Origin: Pseudomonas shahriarae
GTDB taxonomy: Bacteria > Pseudomonadota > Gammaproteobacteria > Pseudomonadales > Pseudomonadaceae
NCBI RefSeq assembly: GCF_014268455.2
Contig: NZ_CP077085.1
Location: forward strand, 5,435,001 to 5,499,000
DNA: 64,000 nucleotides
Reading direction: 5' to 3'
Shown here: positions 21,555 to 29,041 of the stretch, in pieces
How the letters are laid out: the number at the start of each line of letters is the position of its first letter
Numbering within the stretch: position 1 is the first letter of the stretch
Program-made: the position numbers and the translations under genes
The notes under the pieces: model-generated
What the model was told of the DNA's origin: nothing
The model's input: the letters and a program-made list of their open reading frames with translations, nothing else
Database searches by the model: none

Positions 21555-22109
21555 ATGAAACGCACCGGCCGCACCCTGGTTCTGGGCTGCCTGTTGCTCC
21601 TTCAACCGCTGCTTGCACATGCACAAGCGGGCGGCAACTCGTTGTTGATCCCAGCGATGGGTCGTTGCACCCTCAATACTCAGTCCGACAGCCAGGCCGA
21701 GGCGCTGAGCGCCTGCCAAACCCTGGCCGATGGCGGGGATGCGCAGGCGCAATACGAGTTGGGCGAATTCTTCTACGACGACAAAAACCCTGCCCGCGAC
21801 CTGAACAAAGCCTTGAGCTTCTTCGAAAAAGCCTCGCTGCAAGGCCATGCCCAGGCGCAGTTCAAGCTGGGCAGCATGTTCTTCCATGGCGAAGGCGTGC
21901 CGGCCAACAACGTGCAGGCGTATATCGTGCTGAAGATGGCGGCGGTCAACGGCGCCGAAGATGCCCTCGACACCGCAGACGAAGTGGCCGAGCACATGCA
22001 GCGCGATGAGCTGGAAGTGGCGACCCAGGTGCTGGGGCAGATTTTCCGCAATTACCTGCAGGAATTGCAGAGTGCGGATGGGCGTTCGCCCTTTTCGCCG
22101 CTGCCCTGA
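21555..22109 (+). CDS. Secreted Sel1-repeat (TPR-like) protein
   Basis: 184 residues. An N-terminal signal peptide (TLVLGCLLLLQPLLAHA) is followed by Sel1-like repeats: DAQAQYELGEFFYDDKNPAR, then HAQAQFKLGSMFFHGEGVPA and the following NNVQAYIVLKMAAVNG. Such repeats form helical scaffolds for protein contacts, here in the periplasm. It has its own promoter and lies after the hemL terminator. Its stop is only 4 bp from the stop of the convergent deacylase gene, which marks one edge of the likely inserted cluster at 22.1-28.5 kb. Confidence 0.87.
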   Translation: MKRTGRTLVLGCLLLLQPLLAHAQAGGNSLLIPAMGRCTLNTQSDSQAEALSACQTLADGGDAQAQYELGEFFYDDKNPARDLNKALSFFEKASLQGHAQAQFKLGSMFFHGEGVPANNVQAYIVLKMAAVNGAEDALDTADEVAEHMQRDELEVATQVLGQIFRNYLQELQSADGRSPFSPLP

Positions 22110-22113
22110 CCTG

Positions 22114-23226
22114 TCAAGGCGATAACAGGTCGCCCTGTCGATAGGCCCTGACACCCGCGACATGGGCAATCGTCATACCCGCCGTCGCCATCCGCCGTAA
22201 CGAGCGCACATACAACATCCCCCCATGAGCACAGACCACCGGTGTCGAGCGGTCGGTGATCGGATCAATGATCTCGGCGACCCGCTGCCCCTCCTGTAGG
22301 GCGTCGCCAACCCTGGCGCAAAACACGATCAGCCCAGGCGCCAGACTCACTATCGGCTCCACCCCCGCCAGCGGTGTGGGTGGGTTAAGCAGAGGGGGCA
22401 GTTGCGGTACCAGGCCCTCAATGGCTCCTATATAGGTCAGGTAATCAATCAGCGCCTGGCTGTCCCGGCGCGCCAGCCCGTGATCCACATCGGCCACACC
22501 GCGCAACTCCACGGTTACCGCGAAGCCCGGCGGCTGAATACGTCCGGCAAAGCGCGCCTGCATCTGCCTCCAGAACAGTGTGAAACACTCGTCGAACGAT
22601 TGCCCCCCCGCCTCGTGCGCCATGAAACAGGCTTCGGCACCCAGGTAGCGCGCCAGAGGCTCGACTTGTGGCCAGAAGTCCGGCGCCAGGTACAGGTGCT
22701 GCACCGCTTCGAAGTCGCAATGCAGGTCCAGCACCATATCCGCGTCATAGGCGAGGGTTTGCAAGGTCAGGCGCAGGGATTGCAGTTGCGTCGTGGGGAC
22801 CTGACGGGCCAGGACGGCTTTCAGGCTTGCGCGGATCAGATGCAGGTTGCGGACAGGGTCATCGGTCAGTTTCGCGCCCACTTCATCGCCCACCTGCTGA
22901 CTGAGGTCGAGGAAAAACCGATTGAAGTTCTCCCGGCTTTCGTTATCGAAGCGCCCCTGGGGCACGTCCATCAACACCTGCTCCAAACCCAACGGGTTGG
23001 CGACGGGTACCAACACAATGTGTCGACGCAGCGCGCCCGATGCCTCAAGAGCGGCCAGCCGTTGCTTGAGATGCCAGAGCACCAACATGCCCGGCAACTC
23101 ATCGGCGTGCAGGGAAGATTGGATATAGATTTTTCCGCAGGACGCCGGCGGTCCGTAATGAAAGCTGTAAATCTGCCGGGACATGCCCGGCACCGCCGCC
23201 AACAGTTCATGTCGTTCTATTTGCAT
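22114..23226 (-). CDS. Succinylglutamate desuccinylase/aspartoacylase-family deacylase
   Basis: 370 residues, M14-type zinc hydrolase of the AstE/ASPA group. Zinc ligands appear as SLHADELPG (His..Glu, about residues 38-46) and VLDLHCD (second His), the substrate-binding Arg region as SRENFNRFF, and the catalytic Glu as VTVELRG. A beta-rich C-terminal domain follows. Known members remove an acyl group from N-acyl amino acids (N-succinylglutamate, N-acetylaspartate). It starts 9 bp after the permease gene with a strong AGGAGGT, the last gene of the cluster, so it probably acts on the transported compound or its oxidation product. No other AST-pathway gene is nearby, so it is unlikely to be astE itself. 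Confidence 0.85.
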   Translation of the reverse strand: MQIERHELLAAVPGMSRQIYSFHYGPPASCGKIYIQSSLHADELPGMLVLWHLKQRLAALEASGALRRHIVLVPVANPLGLEQVLMDVPQGRFDNESRENFNRFFLDLSQQVGDEVGAKLTDDPVRNLHLIRASLKAVLARQVPTTQLQSLRLTLQTLAYDADMVLDLHCDFEAVQHLYLAPDFWPQVEPLARYLGAEACFMAHEAGGQSFDECFTLFWRQMQARFAGRIQPPGFAVTVELRGVADVDHGLARRDSQALIDYLTYIGAIEGLVPQLPPLLNPPTPLAGVEPIVSLAPGLIVFCARVGDALQEGQRVAEIIDPITDRSTPVVCAHGGMLYVRSLRRMATAGMTIAHVAGVRAYRQGDLLSP

Positions 23227-23235
23227 ATCGACCTC

Positions 23236-23946
23236 CTATCGGCCGGGTCCCAAAAAGCTCAACCAGCGCCGCTCCGCCAGGCGGAACAGCCCCACCAGGG
23301 CAAACGTGGTCAACAGGTAAAGGAGCGCGGCAATGGCAAAGGACTCAAACGTAAGGAACGTCGTGGAACTCGCATCCCGCGCCACTTTCAGAAGGTCCGC
23401 AACCGTGGCCGTAAAGGCCAGCGTCGTAGAATGCAGCATGAAAATCACTTCATTGCTGTAGTAGGGCAATGAACGACGCACCACGGCGGGCATGACCAGG
23501 TAAACGTAGAGCTTCCAGCCGCCAAACCCCAGGGCTCGAGCGGCCTCGACTTCGCCACGGGGCATGGCGCGAATGGCCCCGGCGAATATTTCGGTGGTGT
23601 AGGCACAGGTATTGAGGGCAAAGGCCAGTACGGTGCAATTGAGCGCGTCGCGAAAAAAAGCATCCAGCAATGGCTGTTCGCGTACTGCAGCAATACTGTA
23701 AATGCCGGTGTAACAGATCAATAACTGGATATAGAGCGGCGAACCACGAAACAGGTACGTGAAGCATTGCACCGGCCAGCGCAGCCGCCGCCGGCATGCA
23801 ACCCGGGCAATGGACAAGGGCAGCGCCGCGATGAATCCCAGGCATAGCGACAGGCTGGTCAACCACAAGGTCATCGCCAGCCCAGTGAGCTGTTCGCCGT
23901 CGGTGTAGAGAAAGGGTCGCCAGTACTCCTGGATCAGCTCGATCAT
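23236..23946 (-). CDS. Polar-amino-acid ABC permease (HisM/ArtM-like)
   Basis: 236 residues with five or so membrane helices and the BPD_transp_1 signature: the EAA loop EVEAARALGFGGWKLYVYLVMP lies in the middle (about residues 140-160), where the permease touches the ATPase. The sequence resembles the HisM side of histidine/arginine/octopine-type importers. Its ATG overlaps the stop of the upstream permease gene (ATGA at 23943-23946), implying coupled translation. No ATPase gene is present in the cluster. Confidence 0.9.
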   Translation of the reverse strand: MIELIQEYWRPFLYTDGEQLTGLAMTLWLTSLSLCLGFIAALPLSIARVACRRRLRWPVQCFTYLFRGSPLYIQLLICYTGIYSIAAVREQPLLDAFFRDALNCTVLAFALNTCAYTTEIFAGAIRAMPRGEVEAARALGFGGWKLYVYLVMPAVVRRSLPYYSNEVIFMLHSTTLAFTATVADLLKVARDASSTTFLTFESFAIAALLYLLTTFALVGLFRLAERRWLSFLGPGR

Positions 23947-24662
23947 AGCCGGATCTCGCTGCTGTAACGGCGCTCAAGCCAACGCAACAGCGCGTTGGAC
24001 ACACTGCTCAGCAAGAGATAGATCAGCGCCGCAAACAGCAGAAAACCCAAGAGCTGCTGACTGCCCTTGCCCGCCATTTGCGCCACCTTCACCAGATCGG
24101 CCAAGCCAATGATCGATACCAGCGCCGTGGCCTTGAGCAAGACCATCCAGTTATTCCCAAGGCCTGGCAAAGCGAACCGCATCATCTGCGGGAACACCAC
24201 ATACACAAAGCCCTGCCAGGGAGTCAGGCCCAATGCCTTGGCAGCATTCGCTTGCCCACCGGGCACCGCCAGCAAGGCCCCACGGAACGTCTCGGTAAAG
24301 TAAGCCCCATAGACAAACCCCAGGGTAATAACCCCCGCGCTAAACGGGTCGATTTCTATGTAGGCCCATTCCAAGGCGTTTGTCAGGCGACTCAGCCCGG
24401 TTTGTAGACCATAGAAAATCAGCAGCATCAGCAGTAAATCCGGCACCCCTCGGATAAGCGTGGTGTAAAGCTGGGCCGAGAAGCGCCAGCCCCACACTCT
24501 GGACAATTTCGCGCACGCCCCGATCAAGCCAAAGACCAGCCCCAGCAGCAGGGATAACAACGCCAGCTTGAGTGTGAGCCAGATGCCTTGCAGTAACAGG
24601 GGGCCATAGCCCAGCAGGCTCGTCATGAAGTGCGCGGCGACCGGCAATAATGGTTCAAACAT
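23943..24662 (-). CDS. Polar-amino-acid ABC permease (HisQ/ArtQ-like)
   Basis: 239 residues from ATG 24662, chosen because AAGGAGC lies upstream; the frame is open to 24758. Membrane helices are LLLQGIWLTLKLALLSLLLG and others; the EAA-type loop is GGQANAAKALGLTPWQGFVY. It is the HisQ-like partner of the permease at 23236-23946. Together they should form the membrane channel for the ligand brought by the binding protein encoded 31 bp upstream. Confidence 0.9.
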   Translation of the reverse strand: MFEPLLPVAAHFMTSLLGYGPLLLQGIWLTLKLALLSLLLGLVFGLIGACAKLSRVWGWRFSAQLYTTLIRGVPDLLLMLLIFYGLQTGLSRLTNALEWAYIEIDPFSAGVITLGFVYGAYFTETFRGALLAVPGGQANAAKALGLTPWQGFVYVVFPQMMRFALPGLGNNWMVLLKATALVSIIGLADLVKVAQMAGKGSQQLLGFLLFAALIYLLLSSVSNALLRWLERRYSSEIRL

Positions 24663-24693
24663 AAGTGCCCGCTCCTTACTTGATAAAGAGCGG

Positions 24694-25464
24694 TCAATTG
24701 CCGCTGAACATGTCCATGCCGTCGAAGTACTGGTCTTGCAGGCGGGCATAGGTGCCATCCGTGTGCAGCGCCGCCAACCCCTGGTCCAGCATGCCTTTCA
24801 AGGCGGCGTTGCCCTTGGCGAGACCGATGGCACTTTTTGCTGGCATCAATTCGCTTTCAATCACAGGACCAAGGACAAAACCGGCACCACGGGGCGAGCG
24901 TAAAAATCCGCTGCGGGCTTGCTGTGCGTCTTGTAGCGAAGCCTGCAAACGCCCCGTTATCAGATCGGCATAGACTTGCTCCTGGTCGGGATAGGCCACC
25001 ACCTTCATGCCCGCCTTGGCCAGCACTTGCTTGGCATAGACCTCCTGGATGGAGCCTTGCAAATAGCCGACAGATTGACCGCTGGGCGCCTCCAGGCGGG
25101 TACCTTGCCTGTACACCATGGCAGTCGGGCTGGAGAACACTTCGGAGGTGAAATCAATCACCTTCAGGCGTGCGGCAGTAATGCTCATCGAGGCCAGTAT
25201 GGCGTCGATCTTCCCGGCCTTGAGGCTTGGGATCATAGCGTCGTAGTCAATCTCGACCCACTGGCAACGGACATCCAGGTGTGCACAGATAGCGTTGCCG
25301 ATATCAACTTCAAAACCGACCAGTTGACCGGTGTTGTCTTTATAGGCAAAGGGCGCGTAGTTGGGGTCAACGCCAAAGCGAATAACTTCGTAGTTTTTGG
25401 CAAGTACCGAACCATTGAATAAAAAAATAATAGACAGCGATAACATCAGGACTATTTTTTTCAT
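24694..25464 (-). CDS. Periplasmic amino-acid-binding protein of an ABC importer (HisJ/ArgT-like)
   Basis: 256 residues. Signal peptide KKIVLMLSLSIIFLFNGSVLA, then a family-3 solute-binding protein with IRFGVDPNYAPFAYKD, VGFEVDIGNAICAHLDVRC (the Asp and the Cys pair typical of HisJ/ArgT: Cys...Cys spaced by a few residues) and MSITAARLKVIDFTSEV, where the Arg of T-x-x-R binds the alpha-carboxylate in relatives. This suggests a ligand with an amino-acid head group, probably basic. GAGGAA precedes the ATG. It is only 36 bp downstream of the flavoprotein gene, and the start region is unusually AT-rich for this genome. Confidence 0.9.
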   Translation of the reverse strand: MKKIVLMLSLSIIFLFNGSVLAKNYEVIRFGVDPNYAPFAYKDNTGQLVGFEVDIGNAICAHLDVRCQWVEIDYDAMIPSLKAGKIDAILASMSITAARLKVIDFTSEVFSSPTAMVYRQGTRLEAPSGQSVGYLQGSIQEVYAKQVLAKAGMKVVAYPDQEQVYADLITGRLQASLQDAQQARSGFLRSPRGAGFVLGPVIESELMPAKSAIGLAKGNAALKGMLDQGLAALHTDGTYARLQDQYFDGMDMFSGN

Positions 25465-25500
25465 TGTTTTATTCCTCGTTATTTGTAGAACAACAGAACG

Positions 25501-27558
25501 CTACATAACCTCCAGACATGTAATTTCTCGACGCATGAATAATGAGCCGGCAGGGGCGTCAAATTCTCGCGCCTGGCGATGACCGCCATACACCGCCGCC
25601 GCTATGGTCCCCGGCGCCAGGCAGTCACCTATCGGGAGCAGAGTCTGGATACCGGCTTCTCGCAACTCTTCGTCAGGCCGGTCGAGCGCCCGGAACAAAG
25701 CCTGCTCGGGCTCGCGGGACGTCACCAGTAACAGCGAGGCCACAGCAATCACACGAGGCCGACCGGTATAGACACAGCTGGCAATCACACCATCAGACGT
25801 CACCGTCATCAGCGAGTGGGAAGCGATAATGGTGACATCCAGTTCTAGCAGGCGACGCTGGATGCGATGTTGTTCAAGGGTGTTATGGGTCCAGGCCGCA
25901 ACATCCGCTGCCGGGGTGACGAAGACAACCTCCACGCCCTGGGCCACCAACCGCTCGGCCAGCACGCTGCCCATGTAGTAATGATCGTCGTCGAACAACA
26001 GCACTGGCGAAGGGGCAAGCGCACCGCCCATCACATCATCCGGGGTCAGGATCGGCAGGCTTTCCAGTCCGGGCAAGGCCTGACGCAGCGCCCTGCCCAG
26101 GCCATCACGACGCCAGCGAGCGCCGGTCGCAATAAAAACGTGCGCGGCGGCGAAGTCCAGTACGTCTTGAGCCTCCAGGGGGCTTTGCCGATAGATCTGC
26201 ACCCTGTCCATGCGGCTCAGGGCATCCAGCCGATAGTCGATCACCCGCGACCAACTCGACAACCCGGGCAATTTTGACTCAAGCGCCACACGCCCGCCCA
26301 GGGTCCGCGAGCTCTCCACCAAGGCGACCTCCATGCCGCGCGCGCCCAGCACACGCGCACATTCAAGCCCGGCGGGCCCTGCACCGACCACCAGGGCGCG
26401 GCTTGAGCTGCGTGCAGGGCTCACCGACTCGGGGTGCCAGCCCCGCCGCCATTCTTCGCCCATGGTCGGGTTCTGCGTGCATCGCAAGGGCGTACTGGTG
26501 TGGTCGCCACTGACGCAGACATTGCAGCCAATGCATTCGCGGATCTCATCCATCCGCCCTTCTTCAATCTTCTTGGGCAGGAACGGGTCGGCAATCGACG
26601 GGCGGGCAGCACCGATCAGGTCCAGCACGCCACGTCTGACCAGGGAAACCATGGTATCCGGCGAGGTAAAACGCCCCACACCCACCAGCGGTTTGCTGGT
26701 CAACGCCTTCAGCCCGGATAAAAAGGTCTCTTGATAACCTTCGCTGGCAAAACGCGAGGTCATGCTGTCGTTCGACCAGTCGGCCACATTGATATCCCAC
26801 AGGTCTGGCAAGTCAGCCAGCATGGTGAAGATTTCGGCCCCCTCCCCTTCGTGGGACAGGCCAGCGGCGATCTGCTCATCCACCGCCAACCGCACAGCGA
26901 CCGCACACCGGTCGCCCACCGCGTCCCGAGTGTCTTCAATCAACTCGCGCAACAAGCGCACGCGATTCTCCAACACCCCTCCGTACTCATCGGTACGACG
27001 GTTGTTGCGCGGTGTCAGAAAATGAAACGGCAAGCCCAGATCGTGGCCGGCGTACACATAGACGATATCGAAACCCGCCGAGCGCGCCCGCAAGGCGGCC
27101 GCCCGATGCATCTGACGCAGTTGCCTGATATCCGCAAGACTCATGGCCCGCGCCTGGACCGGGTCATACCCTCGCACTGGAGTGTCAGAGGGGGCCCACG
27201 GCACTTCGCGGCTGTAGCGATTCGGCGCGGAGTAGCCATTGAACGCCAGTTCAACGCCTGCCAGTGAACCGTGCTGGTGGACCGCCTCACACATGCGCGC
27301 CAGCGCCGGTATATCTCGCTCGTCCCACAACCGTGCTTCTATATAAGGAGAAAACTCGCTGTATGGGCTGATCTCGCACTCCTCCGTACAAACTACGCCC
27401 CATCCTCCCTGGGCCTTGATGCCACGCATACTCGCCATGGCGGAGGGGTGCACATGCCCCATACCGTTGCAATGAGGCACTTGATAAAAGCGGTTACGGG
27501 TGCGAACCGGTCCTATTTGAACTGATTCAAAAAGAATGTCATACCGAGGATCGCGCAC
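25501..27558 (-). CDS. Trimethylamine/histamine-dehydrogenase-like iron-sulfur flavoprotein
   Basis: 685 residues from GTG 27558, chosen because GGGAG precedes it and it puts the flavin-linking Cys at residue 30 as in trimethylamine dehydrogenase (TMADH). An upstream TTG at 27600 lacks a good ribosome site. An old-yellow-enzyme-like barrel (1-340) has RNRFYQVPHC (Cys30, covalent FMN link in TMADH), Tyr169 and His172 (VYVYAGH), Trp261 and Asp264. CIGCNVC plus Cys360 bind a 4Fe-4S cluster. The C-terminal part binds ADP/FAD-like nucleotide (VVGAGPAGLECARVL). Residues that form the TMADH amine bowl are changed: Tyr60 is Glu60 and Trp355 is Asp352, the latter as in histamine dehydrogenase. It probably oxidises a cationic amine. 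Confidence 0.85.
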   Translation of the reverse strand: MRDPRYDILFESVQIGPVRTRNRFYQVPHCNGMGHVHPSAMASMRGIKAQGGWGVVCTEECEISPYSEFSPYIEARLWDERDIPALARMCEAVHQHGSLAGVELAFNGYSAPNRYSREVPWAPSDTPVRGYDPVQARAMSLADIRQLRQMHRAAALRARSAGFDIVYVYAGHDLGLPFHFLTPRNNRRTDEYGGVLENRVRLLRELIEDTRDAVGDRCAVAVRLAVDEQIAAGLSHEGEGAEIFTMLADLPDLWDINVADWSNDSMTSRFASEGYQETFLSGLKALTSKPLVGVGRFTSPDTMVSLVRRGVLDLIGAARPSIADPFLPKKIEEGRMDEIRECIGCNVCVSGDHTSTPLRCTQNPTMGEEWRRGWHPESVSPARSSSRALVVGAGPAGLECARVLGARGMEVALVESSRTLGGRVALESKLPGLSSWSRVIDYRLDALSRMDRVQIYRQSPLEAQDVLDFAAAHVFIATGARWRRDGLGRALRQALPGLESLPILTPDDVMGGALAPSPVLLFDDDHYYMGSVLAERLVAQGVEVVFVTPAADVAAWTHNTLEQHRIQRRLLELDVTIIASHSLMTVTSDGVIASCVYTGRPRVIAVASLLLVTSREPEQALFRALDRPDEELREAGIQTLLPIGDCLAPGTIAAAVYGGHRQAREFDAPAGSLFMRREITCLEVM

Positions 27559-27651
27559 AGGGCTACTCCCGAACGAATAAGTCCGTTGATAAAGGCTCAA
27601 AGAGCTATATAAAAATCAGTCGTGCGTTAACAGTCGAATTGCAACGCAGGT

Positions 27652-28512
27652 TCAACTTTGTACATAACCTACAAATGTTTGATGCAACTGTGCGATTGAA
27701 CGCAAATACTCTTCCATCTCTGGACCGAGCTTTTTCGACATATCGTTAATCAACAAATGGGTCAGGGACAACATGGTCGACGTCGAGTCCCATAGCAGCT
27801 CAAGCTCCGTGGACACCCGGAATACCTCGTCGGCATTTTGCTCGGCCCACTCGCAAAAGTTATCGGTAATCAGCGTGACGGGAATATTGCGGCTGCGAGC
27901 CTCGCGACATAACAGCAGTGATTGGCGCGAATAACGTCGCGCTTCATAGACAATCAGCATCGAACCGGCCGGGGAAGCGAGCAATACCTCGCCGAAATGA
28001 CCGGAGGCGCCATCCAGCAGATGCACGCCACGGCGCAGATACTGCAGCATATGAGCCATGGAACAGGCGGTACCGCGCTCAGTCCCGAAACCGGCGACAA
28101 AAATCTGCGGTGTTTGCGCAAGCCTGCTGGTCACTGCCTGCCAGGGAACGGTACGGGTGTATTCATAAACCCGCACCAGGGCCGCGATTTCCAACTCCAG
28201 GCTGCGGGCCAACGAACGCTGGCTATCAGAACCCTCCTGCTGGAAAGCGCGCAGCCGGTCGCCGATCAACCAGGGGCTATCGCCCAAGTCATCCTTGAGT
28301 TCGTTCTTGAGGTCTTTGAAATGCTTGTAGCCCACGGCGCGACAGAAGCGGCCAACGGTGGACTCACTGATGGCAAGCTTCTGCGCCACCATCGCCGAGT
28401 TCTCGAAGGGCAGATCCCTCAAGTTCGACAAAATATAAGCCGCCAGCGCGCGATAGGAAGGCGATCTGGATGACAGCTGCTGTTGGAGGCGTGTTTTTAT
28501 AGGTGTGTTCAT
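27652..28512 (-). CDS. RpiR-family transcriptional regulator (HTH_6 + SIS)
   Basis: 286 residues from ATG 28512 (AGAGGA upstream). The N-terminal HTH_6 domain has AAYILSNLRDLPF and AQKLAISESTVGRFCRAVGY (recognition helix). A SIS domain follows from about residue 120 (IFVAGFGTERGTACSMAHML, then VYEARRYSRQSLLLCREARS and NIPVTLITDNFCEWAEQNAD). SIS domains bind phosphosugars in many relatives, but RpiR members also control amino-acid and amine genes. It lies 93 bp upstream of the flavoprotein gene on the same strand and is the likely regulator of the cluster down to 22114. Confidence 0.9.
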   Translation of the reverse strand: MNTPIKTRLQQQLSSRSPSYRALAAYILSNLRDLPFENSAMVAQKLAISESTVGRFCRAVGYKHFKDLKNELKDDLGDSPWLIGDRLRAFQQEGSDSQRSLARSLELEIAALVRVYEYTRTVPWQAVTSRLAQTPQIFVAGFGTERGTACSMAHMLQYLRRGVHLLDGASGHFGEVLLASPAGSMLIVYEARRYSRQSLLLCREARSRNIPVTLITDNFCEWAEQNADEVFRVSTELELLWDSTSTMLSLTHLLINDMSKKLGPEMEEYLRSIAQLHQTFVGYVQS

Positions 28513-28538
28513 GGCGTCCTCTGCGCATGAGCACAAAC

Positions 28539-28582
28539 TGATATTTTTCTATCACTCAGTCAATACGTGACAGATAACTATC
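28539..28582. promoter_or_regulatory. Candidate operators: two GATA/TATC inverted repeats upstream of the RpiR gene
   Basis: TGATA-N6-TATCA at 28539-28554 and GATA-AC-TATC at 28573-28582 lie in the AT-rich region between the RpiR gene and the DUF1820 gene. The spacing and the shared half-site suggest regulator binding, possibly by RpiR itself. I do not find the same site before the flavoprotein gene. Confidence 0.25.
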
Positions 28583-28620
28583 AGAACAATCCTACAAATC
28601 AGGGTCTGGAGCCCAGCGTT

Positions 28621-28947
28621 CTACTTTTCCGGCATCGGCATCGGAAACGGCATGACATTGCTCACACCCCGCGCCTCGCTGATCTTGGGCGTGCCCAGGC
28701 GCTCGACTTCGTCGATGCGCACAATCGAATGCATCGGCACAAAACTGCGCACCACGCCTTCGAACTGGGCCTTGAGCTTTTCCTCGCCCGGATCGACGAC
28801 CAGCTGCGTGCGCTCGCCAAAGACGAACTCTTCCACTTCCAGGAAGCCCCACAGATCACTTTGATAGATCTGTTTGGCGTACATTTCGAACACCTGGCCC
28901 TGGTTAAGGAAAATCACCTTGTAGATTGGAGCTTCACGTTTGGTCAT
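28621..28947 (-). CDS. DUF1820 family protein
   Basis: 108 residues from ATG 28947; the frame runs on to 29028 but the family begins MTKREAPIYKVIFLNQGQ. The pattern IYKVIFLNQGQVFEMYAKQI, then GFLEVEEFVFGE and VVRSFVPMHSIVRIDEVERL is characteristic of this small family in gamma-proteobacteria, which has no known function. It is divergent from miaB, as I recall for other Pseudomonas. It lies outside the inserted cluster. Confidence 0.85.
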   Translation of the reverse strand: MTKREAPIYKVIFLNQGQVFEMYAKQIYQSDLWGFLEVEEFVFGERTQLVVDPGEEKLKAQFEGVVRSFVPMHSIVRIDEVERLGTPKISEARGVSNVMPFPMPMPEK

Positions 28948-29041
28948 GGGGGGCGGGCAGCACATCGGCGGATATAAATGAGGGCGCGAACTATAGCATG
29001 GCACCCGATGCACAGTGCTAGGAACCAATGGGCATGCCCCC

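Follow-up and report, generated by a model that had tools for sequence, protein, structure and literature searches.

A Pseudomonas gene cluster combining a copied aot-type transport and hydrolase block with a histamine-dehydrogenase-like flavoenzyme

The cluster and its chromosomal site

Investigating a 64,000-nt stretch of the Pseudomonas shahriarae chromosome (GCF_014268455.2, NZ_CP077085.1, positions 5,435,001-5,499,000, forward strand; this whole stretch is hereafter the window, and all coordinates below are positions within it), we analysed a cluster at 22114-28512 on the minus strand, in which five packed genes and an RpiR-family regulator lie between a Sel1-repeat gene and the DUF1820 and miaB genes. 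Its open reading frames (ORFs) are 22114-23226, 23236-23946, 23943-24758, 24694-25464, 25501-27600 and 27652-28536, and they reproduce the dense one-strand packing described in the initial annotation, with intergenic gaps of 36, 31, -4 and 9 bp; the 31-bp gap before the permease ORF 23943-24758 is obtained with an internal ATG at 24662, and the regulator reads from the ATG at 28512. For the flavoenzyme the GTG at 27558 is the probable start codon, giving 685 aa; this start is preferred because relatives share both a ribosome-binding-site-like GGGAG and a conserved leader ahead of the GTG. Pfam assigns the products, in coordinate order, to AstE_AspA_cat, twice BPD_transp_1, SBP_bac_3, Oxidored_FMN with Pyr_redox_2, and HTH_6 with SIS. 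The features are (identities are to proteins encoded elsewhere in the same genome, unless stated otherwise):

21555..22109, plus: Sel1-repeat gene (Pfam), left border, outside the cluster; matched in 99/99 genomes
22114..23226, minus: CphZ/AotO-type M14 zinc hydrolase (beta-aspartyl dipeptidase family), 370 aa; Pfam AstE_AspA_cat; best PDB matches 8ein/8eip (CphZ); 65% to the AotO-type protein
23236..23946, minus: ATP-binding cassette (ABC) permease, AotM/HisM type, 236 aa; HisM subfamily model NF011651 above cut-off (380 vs 306 bits); 76% to the aot-type permease
23943..24662, minus: ABC permease, AotQ/HisQ type, 239 aa from the internal ATG; Pfam; best NCBIfam model HisQ, 283 bits, under its cut-off of 319; 67% to the aot-type permease
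24694..25464, minus: periplasmic binding protein, AotJ/lysine-arginine-ornithine (LAO) type, 256 aa; NCBIfam LAO models under their cut-offs; 54% to the AotJ-type protein
25501..27558 (ORF open to 27600), minus: flavoenzyme of the histamine/trimethylamine dehydrogenase family, 685 aa from the probable GTG; best PDB matches by sequence 3k30 and 6de6
27652..28512, minus: RpiR-family regulator (HTH_6 and SIS), 286 aa; 81% to the copy in one other carrier; relatives of 55-61% in D-lysine-like operons
28568..28583, minus: predicted RpiR operator TGATAG-TTAT-CTGTCA, 55 bp upstream of the RpiR start
28621..28953, minus: DUF1820 gene (Pfam), right border, outside the cluster; adjoins the Sel1 gene in 27/30 loci

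Two stretches that had been pointed out as AT-rich are so indeed: GC content is 31.4% at 25380-25500 (start of the binding-protein gene) and 40.6% at 28500-28600 (regulator promoter), against 61.9% in the whole window. As to codon usage, for which a check had been proposed earlier, GC at third codon positions amounts to 65-74% across the six genes of the cluster and to 77-83% in thiD, thiE, hemL, sel1, miaB and phoH; two other neighbours, however, the DUF1820 gene at the border (74%) and ybeY (70%), lie within the range of the cluster.

Surveying 398 Pseudomonas genomes (own genome included; flavoenzyme match at E 1e-150 or better), we found the flavoenzyme in 19, in three of them as copies of 58-61% identity in other contexts; the remaining 16, again with the own genome, carry versions at least 80% identical. 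The cluster is thus patchily distributed, occurring in a few species of fluorescent Pseudomonas, in agreement with the inserted element that the initial annotation had proposed and would have withdrawn had most Pseudomonas carried it at this spot. In all 16 carriers the five structural genes keep their relative order and are bordered by the Sel1 gene on one side and by DUF1820/miaB on the other, the block being inverted in one (G343), and none of the five matched genes contains an internal stop in the 15 other carriers. The gap between cluster and flank is 7-278 bp in 13 of these 15, contains the RpiR gene in G373 and reaches 783 bp in G343, with no recognised gene and nothing recognisable by eye in its translation. 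Among the 30 best Sel1 matches of a 99-genome search, which represent nearest relatives and not a random sample, the Sel1 gene is followed without interruption by DUF1820 and miaB in 27 and by the cluster in three, so the claim that the cluster interrupts this order holds.

Close relatives of the own genome possess either a divergent version of the cluster or none. A tree of flanking DNA groups the own genome with G052 and G032 (100/99 support); the site is empty in G032, and the cluster of G052 nests in a clade of 13 copies lacking RpiR (100/100). Constraining the cluster tree to join the own genome and G052 is rejected (p-AU 1.4e-58), as is, for the flanking DNA, the grouping of all 13 RpiR-less carriers in one clade (p-AU 1.2e-4); a clade of the two RpiR carriers in the cluster tree is not rejected (p 0.112). 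The groups for these tests were chosen after the trees had been inspected. Hence cluster versions have been exchanged between species at one fixed chromosomal site. In three of four empty Sel1-DUF1820 gaps inspected by eye (L108, L111, L112; none in L116) we observed palindromes, which we take to be of the kind named REP and which might perhaps explain why this spot accepts insertions.

A copied aot-type block without its ATPase

The own genome contains a complete operon at 1.546-1.550 Mb consisting of a binding protein, two permeases, an AotO-type hydrolase and an ATPase, to which the four corresponding cluster proteins are related at the identities listed above; a more distant hydrolase (41%) lies with a permease (46%) at 4.696 Mb. 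The reference for this arrangement is the arginine/ornithine operon aotJQMOP-argR of Pseudomonas, from PA0888 onward. Judged by homology and by the shared gene order J-Q-M-O, binding protein, permeases and hydrolase are a diverged copy of this block from an arginine-type operon, minus the ATPase. The aot operon has an ATPase gene of its own, aotP, but no ABC ATPase was found in the window among the 114 genome matches listed (150 of 199 candidates scored) or in the maps of the 15 other carriers, and the earlier description of an incomplete importer stands. The cluster further differs in having RpiR where the aot operon has ArgR (no argR-sized ORF lies beside the own aot-type operon in the 9.5 kb examined), in being joined to the flavoenzyme, and in its diverged binding protein and hydrolase loop.

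P. aeruginosa mutants in aotJ, Q, M and P lost growth on arginine and ornithine or grew less on them (PMC2542419), and AotJ binds L-arginine (PMC6829864). At the ligand site the window binding protein retains D11, Y14, S70, S72, R77 and D161 of the lysine/arginine/ornithine-binding protein. S69 is replaced by Ala in 16/16 carriers, F52 by Tyr in the window copy only, and T121 by Ile in the window and one other carrier, Ile also being found in the own AotJ-type protein. The likely type of ligand still is one with an alpha-amino-acid head and a cationic tail. Both permeases are close in sequence to the aot-type pair and retain the loop, recognised by what we take to be its motif, that is expected to contact the ATPase, making it plausible that AotP serves the importer in trans.

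For the hydrolase, the nearest solved structures are those of CphZ (8ein/8eip), a beta-Asp-Arg/Lys dipeptidase. Both share homology and fold, the catalytic Glu and the conserved motif positions (the zinc ligands being assigned on our assumption), with 32% identity in structural alignment. A tree with 52 hydrolases places the 25 cluster-type proteins in a single clade (100/100) nested among the AotO-type ones, and the attachment point of this clade is uncertain because the outgroup branch is very long. Loop residues 98-99 are R/E in 18/19 cluster copies, unlike both AotO and CphZ; such cluster-specific changes in a gene that is present without internal stops in 16/16 carriers suggest that the hydrolase is in use. 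The AstE-like deacylase of the initial annotation has to be dropped: no NCBIfam family, and hence no curated AstE model, matched at E 0.001. A module for feeding on cyanophycin is likewise not supported, with a cyanophycinase over cut-off in 0/17 genomes and weak matches below cut-off in two.

Flavoenzyme and regulator

The best PDB matches of the flavoenzyme by sequence are histamine dehydrogenases (HDHs; 3k30, 6de6), with 50-52% identity in structural alignment. Retained are the Cys for 6-S-Cys-FMN, the Tyr/His/Asp triad and the Cys residues of the 4Fe-4S cluster. Trimethylamine dehydrogenase (TMADH) has an aromatic bowl of Tyr60, Trp264 and Trp355; in the window enzyme Glu stands at 60, Trp is kept at 264 and no Trp lies near 355. 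HisD, the 6-hydroxypseudooxynicotine amine oxidase of P. geniculata (6l6j), forms a long separate branch in the tree and lacks a Cys where the flavin Cys aligns. Our structure model (pLDDT 79, falling below 50 at residues 83-89 and 356-390; root-mean-square deviation 22 A when both domains are superposed) was too poor for pocket modelling and served only for entry titles, Z and identities.

These likenesses could suggest a cluster for the utilisation of histamine, or of agmatine, with a true histamine dehydrogenase, the more so as W275, E88 and D366 of the histamine pocket (positions as listed in PMC10180351) are retained. We regard this as improbable. Positions 65, 74, 77, 115 and 181 of the N. 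simplex HDH are changed in the window enzyme, among them Gln65 to Glu, Asn115 to Ser and Tyr181 to Leu, although Glu65 and Leu181 are common across the wider family; and the binding protein keeps a position for an amino-acid carboxylate that histamine would not need. In a quick tree of 98 rows the window clade lies outside that of both characterised HDHs: it pairs with an uncharacterised third clade, the two characterised enzymes joining afterwards, with an SH-aLRT of only 90.

Around 75 further HDH-like loci, several of which lie on short contigs, we found no common neighbour gene. With tblastn at 1e-12 and half length, 0/75 have a CphZ-type hydrolase within 8 kb; a glutamine-synthetase-like gene occurs in seven and a class-III aminotransferase in 11. 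The nearest sister clade (six loci, one on a 3.7-kb contig) has no neighbours in common when compared by eye. Five marine alphaproteobacterial loci (L038, L042, L045, L058, L077) each contain a group of two to four HDH/TMADH-like genes; at four of the five loci polyamine-transport-like genes lie nearby, and one paralogue has a very different pocket. A module common to Pandoraea and Burkholderia (L013, L014) comprises an HDH-like gene, a glutamine-synthetase-like gene, an amidohydrolase, an FGase-like gene and another RpiR regulator.

The regulator of the cluster has the HTH_6 and SIS domains of RpiR/MurR proteins. At this site it occurs only in the window and in G373, being absent from the cluster in 14/16 carriers. 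In the 13 RpiR-less carriers of the same orientation the promoter region is still alignable and the ATG at the RpiR start is kept in 11, from which we infer that the gene body was deleted; in the inverted G343, tblastn found no RpiR at the site, with whole-genome matches elsewhere only. A relative elsewhere in the genome is present in this strain and, among the 13, in G139 alone. Together with the patchy distribution and the missing ATPase, the loss of the regulator could be taken to mean that an accessory cluster with no selected function as a unit is being lost, which appears distinctly improbable in view of the intact structural genes in their constant order and of the exchange of versions at the site.

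Relatives of the regulator (55-61%) occur in 61/297 other genomes at E 1e-90, and in two 20-kb regions and seven short loci viewed by eye they adjoin an LAO-type binding protein, opposite an Ldh_2-looking gene; the one region scanned with Pfam holds an operon with permeases, a DAO flavoprotein, an ATPase and Ldh_2. In P. putida the operon for D-lysine spans PP_3591 to PP_3597. The operons of the RpiR relatives resemble the D-lysine genes PP3591, PP3593 and PP3596 (PMC6034422). Common to them and the window are the kind of regulator, a palindrome and an ABC importer for cationic amino acids; unlike the cluster, they contain a D-amino-acid-dehydrogenase-like enzyme and an Ldh_2 protein, and the scanned region (L169) showed neither an HDH-like nor a CphZ-type gene in the operon. 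The palindrome, TGACAG-N4-CTGTCA, lies within two mismatches before 12/12 RpiR genes examined and is exact in nine (L166, L167, L170-L179); these promoters belong to the best RpiR matches, and the motif was read from them before scoring. We predict it to be the operator of the RpiR genes in D-lysine-like operons. The window sequence has one mismatch (0/300 Markov shuffles as good), the G373 promoter three (20/300), and the 13 RpiR-less promoters three to five. The looser pattern TGAYAGNNNNCTRTCA has its single match in the 6.05-Mb genome at 28568-28583; as about one chance match per genome is estimated, the position and not the count is the evidence.

These relatives, the LAO type of the binding protein, and a Burkholderia relative (75%) near an L-glutamate-gamma-semialdehyde dehydrogenase (above NCBIfam cut-off), as expected if ornithine yields that aldehyde, would also suit the uptake of a basic amino acid in free form, such as D-lysine, D-arginine, ornithine or an N-methylated variant, whose side-chain amine would be oxidised by the flavoenzyme, the CphZ-type gene being a passenger of the copied block. 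This explanation seems somewhat unlikely to us, since the hydrolase appears to be in use; moreover, no amino-acid carboxylate site was identified in the flavoenzyme, although no modelling search for one was made.

Proposed function

The cluster is a new combination built from known parts, and we recognised no description of it in the open-licence literature searched. We propose, with a probability of about 0.4, that the aot-type J-Q-M-O copy, coupled to the HDH-like amine dehydrogenase and governed by an RpiR of the D-lysine-operon type, imports a conjugate, cleaves it and oxidises the product; most likely this would serve to scavenge an amide-linked basic amino acid or amine. The binding protein would capture a compound that combines the head of an alpha-amino acid with a cationic tail, for instance a basic amino acid or amine conjugated through a beta-aspartyl or another amide bond. 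Import through the two permeases would draw on an ATPase from another locus, most probably AotP. The CphZ-type hydrolase would then cleave the amide to aspartate (or another acid) and the basic amine or amino acid, and the flavoenzyme would oxidise the freed amine to an aldehyde and ammonia, electrons passing via 4Fe-4S to electron-transfer flavoprotein. RpiR may bind the palindrome before its own gene and control the operon. Architecture and ancestry of the cluster are well supported by sequence; pathway, substrate, order of steps, flux and sign of regulation are what we infer from them.

The initial annotation had suggested uptake, deacylation and oxidative deamination of an N-modified basic amino acid or diamine. 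This is borne out in part: the genes suit a route in which a modified basic amino acid or amine is taken up, cleaved at an amide bond and oxidatively deaminated. The copied aot block, the kinship with CphZ, the HDH-like placement and the D-lysine-like operons of the RpiR relatives go beyond it. More speculative, and in our view unlikely, is a pathway dedicated to biogenic amines in isopeptide linkage, such as beta-aspartyl-agmatine, -putrescine or -histamine, in which a neofunctionalised aotJQM/CphZ module would take up and cleave the conjugate and an HDH-like dehydrogenase of new specificity would oxidise the released amine; if true, such amines would be a nutrient class new for Pseudomonas. 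The cluster shows how a block for arginine-conjugate transport and dipeptide cleavage was copied and came to be linked with a flavin amine dehydrogenase, at a site whose versions pass from species to species. The locus offers a small substrate space, namely amide conjugates of basic amino acids and amines, together with a predicted operator, and close relatives that carry the cluster with RpiR, carry it without RpiR or have an empty site provide a natural comparison of alleles.

As a separate observation, another Pseudomonas genome (G139, L168:12708-19253) contains a tandem array in which seven similar ORFs, each 307-316 aa long, follow one another and begin almost identically (MSTPPAGTTQKRL.SRNDYLAPLPIPTGE).
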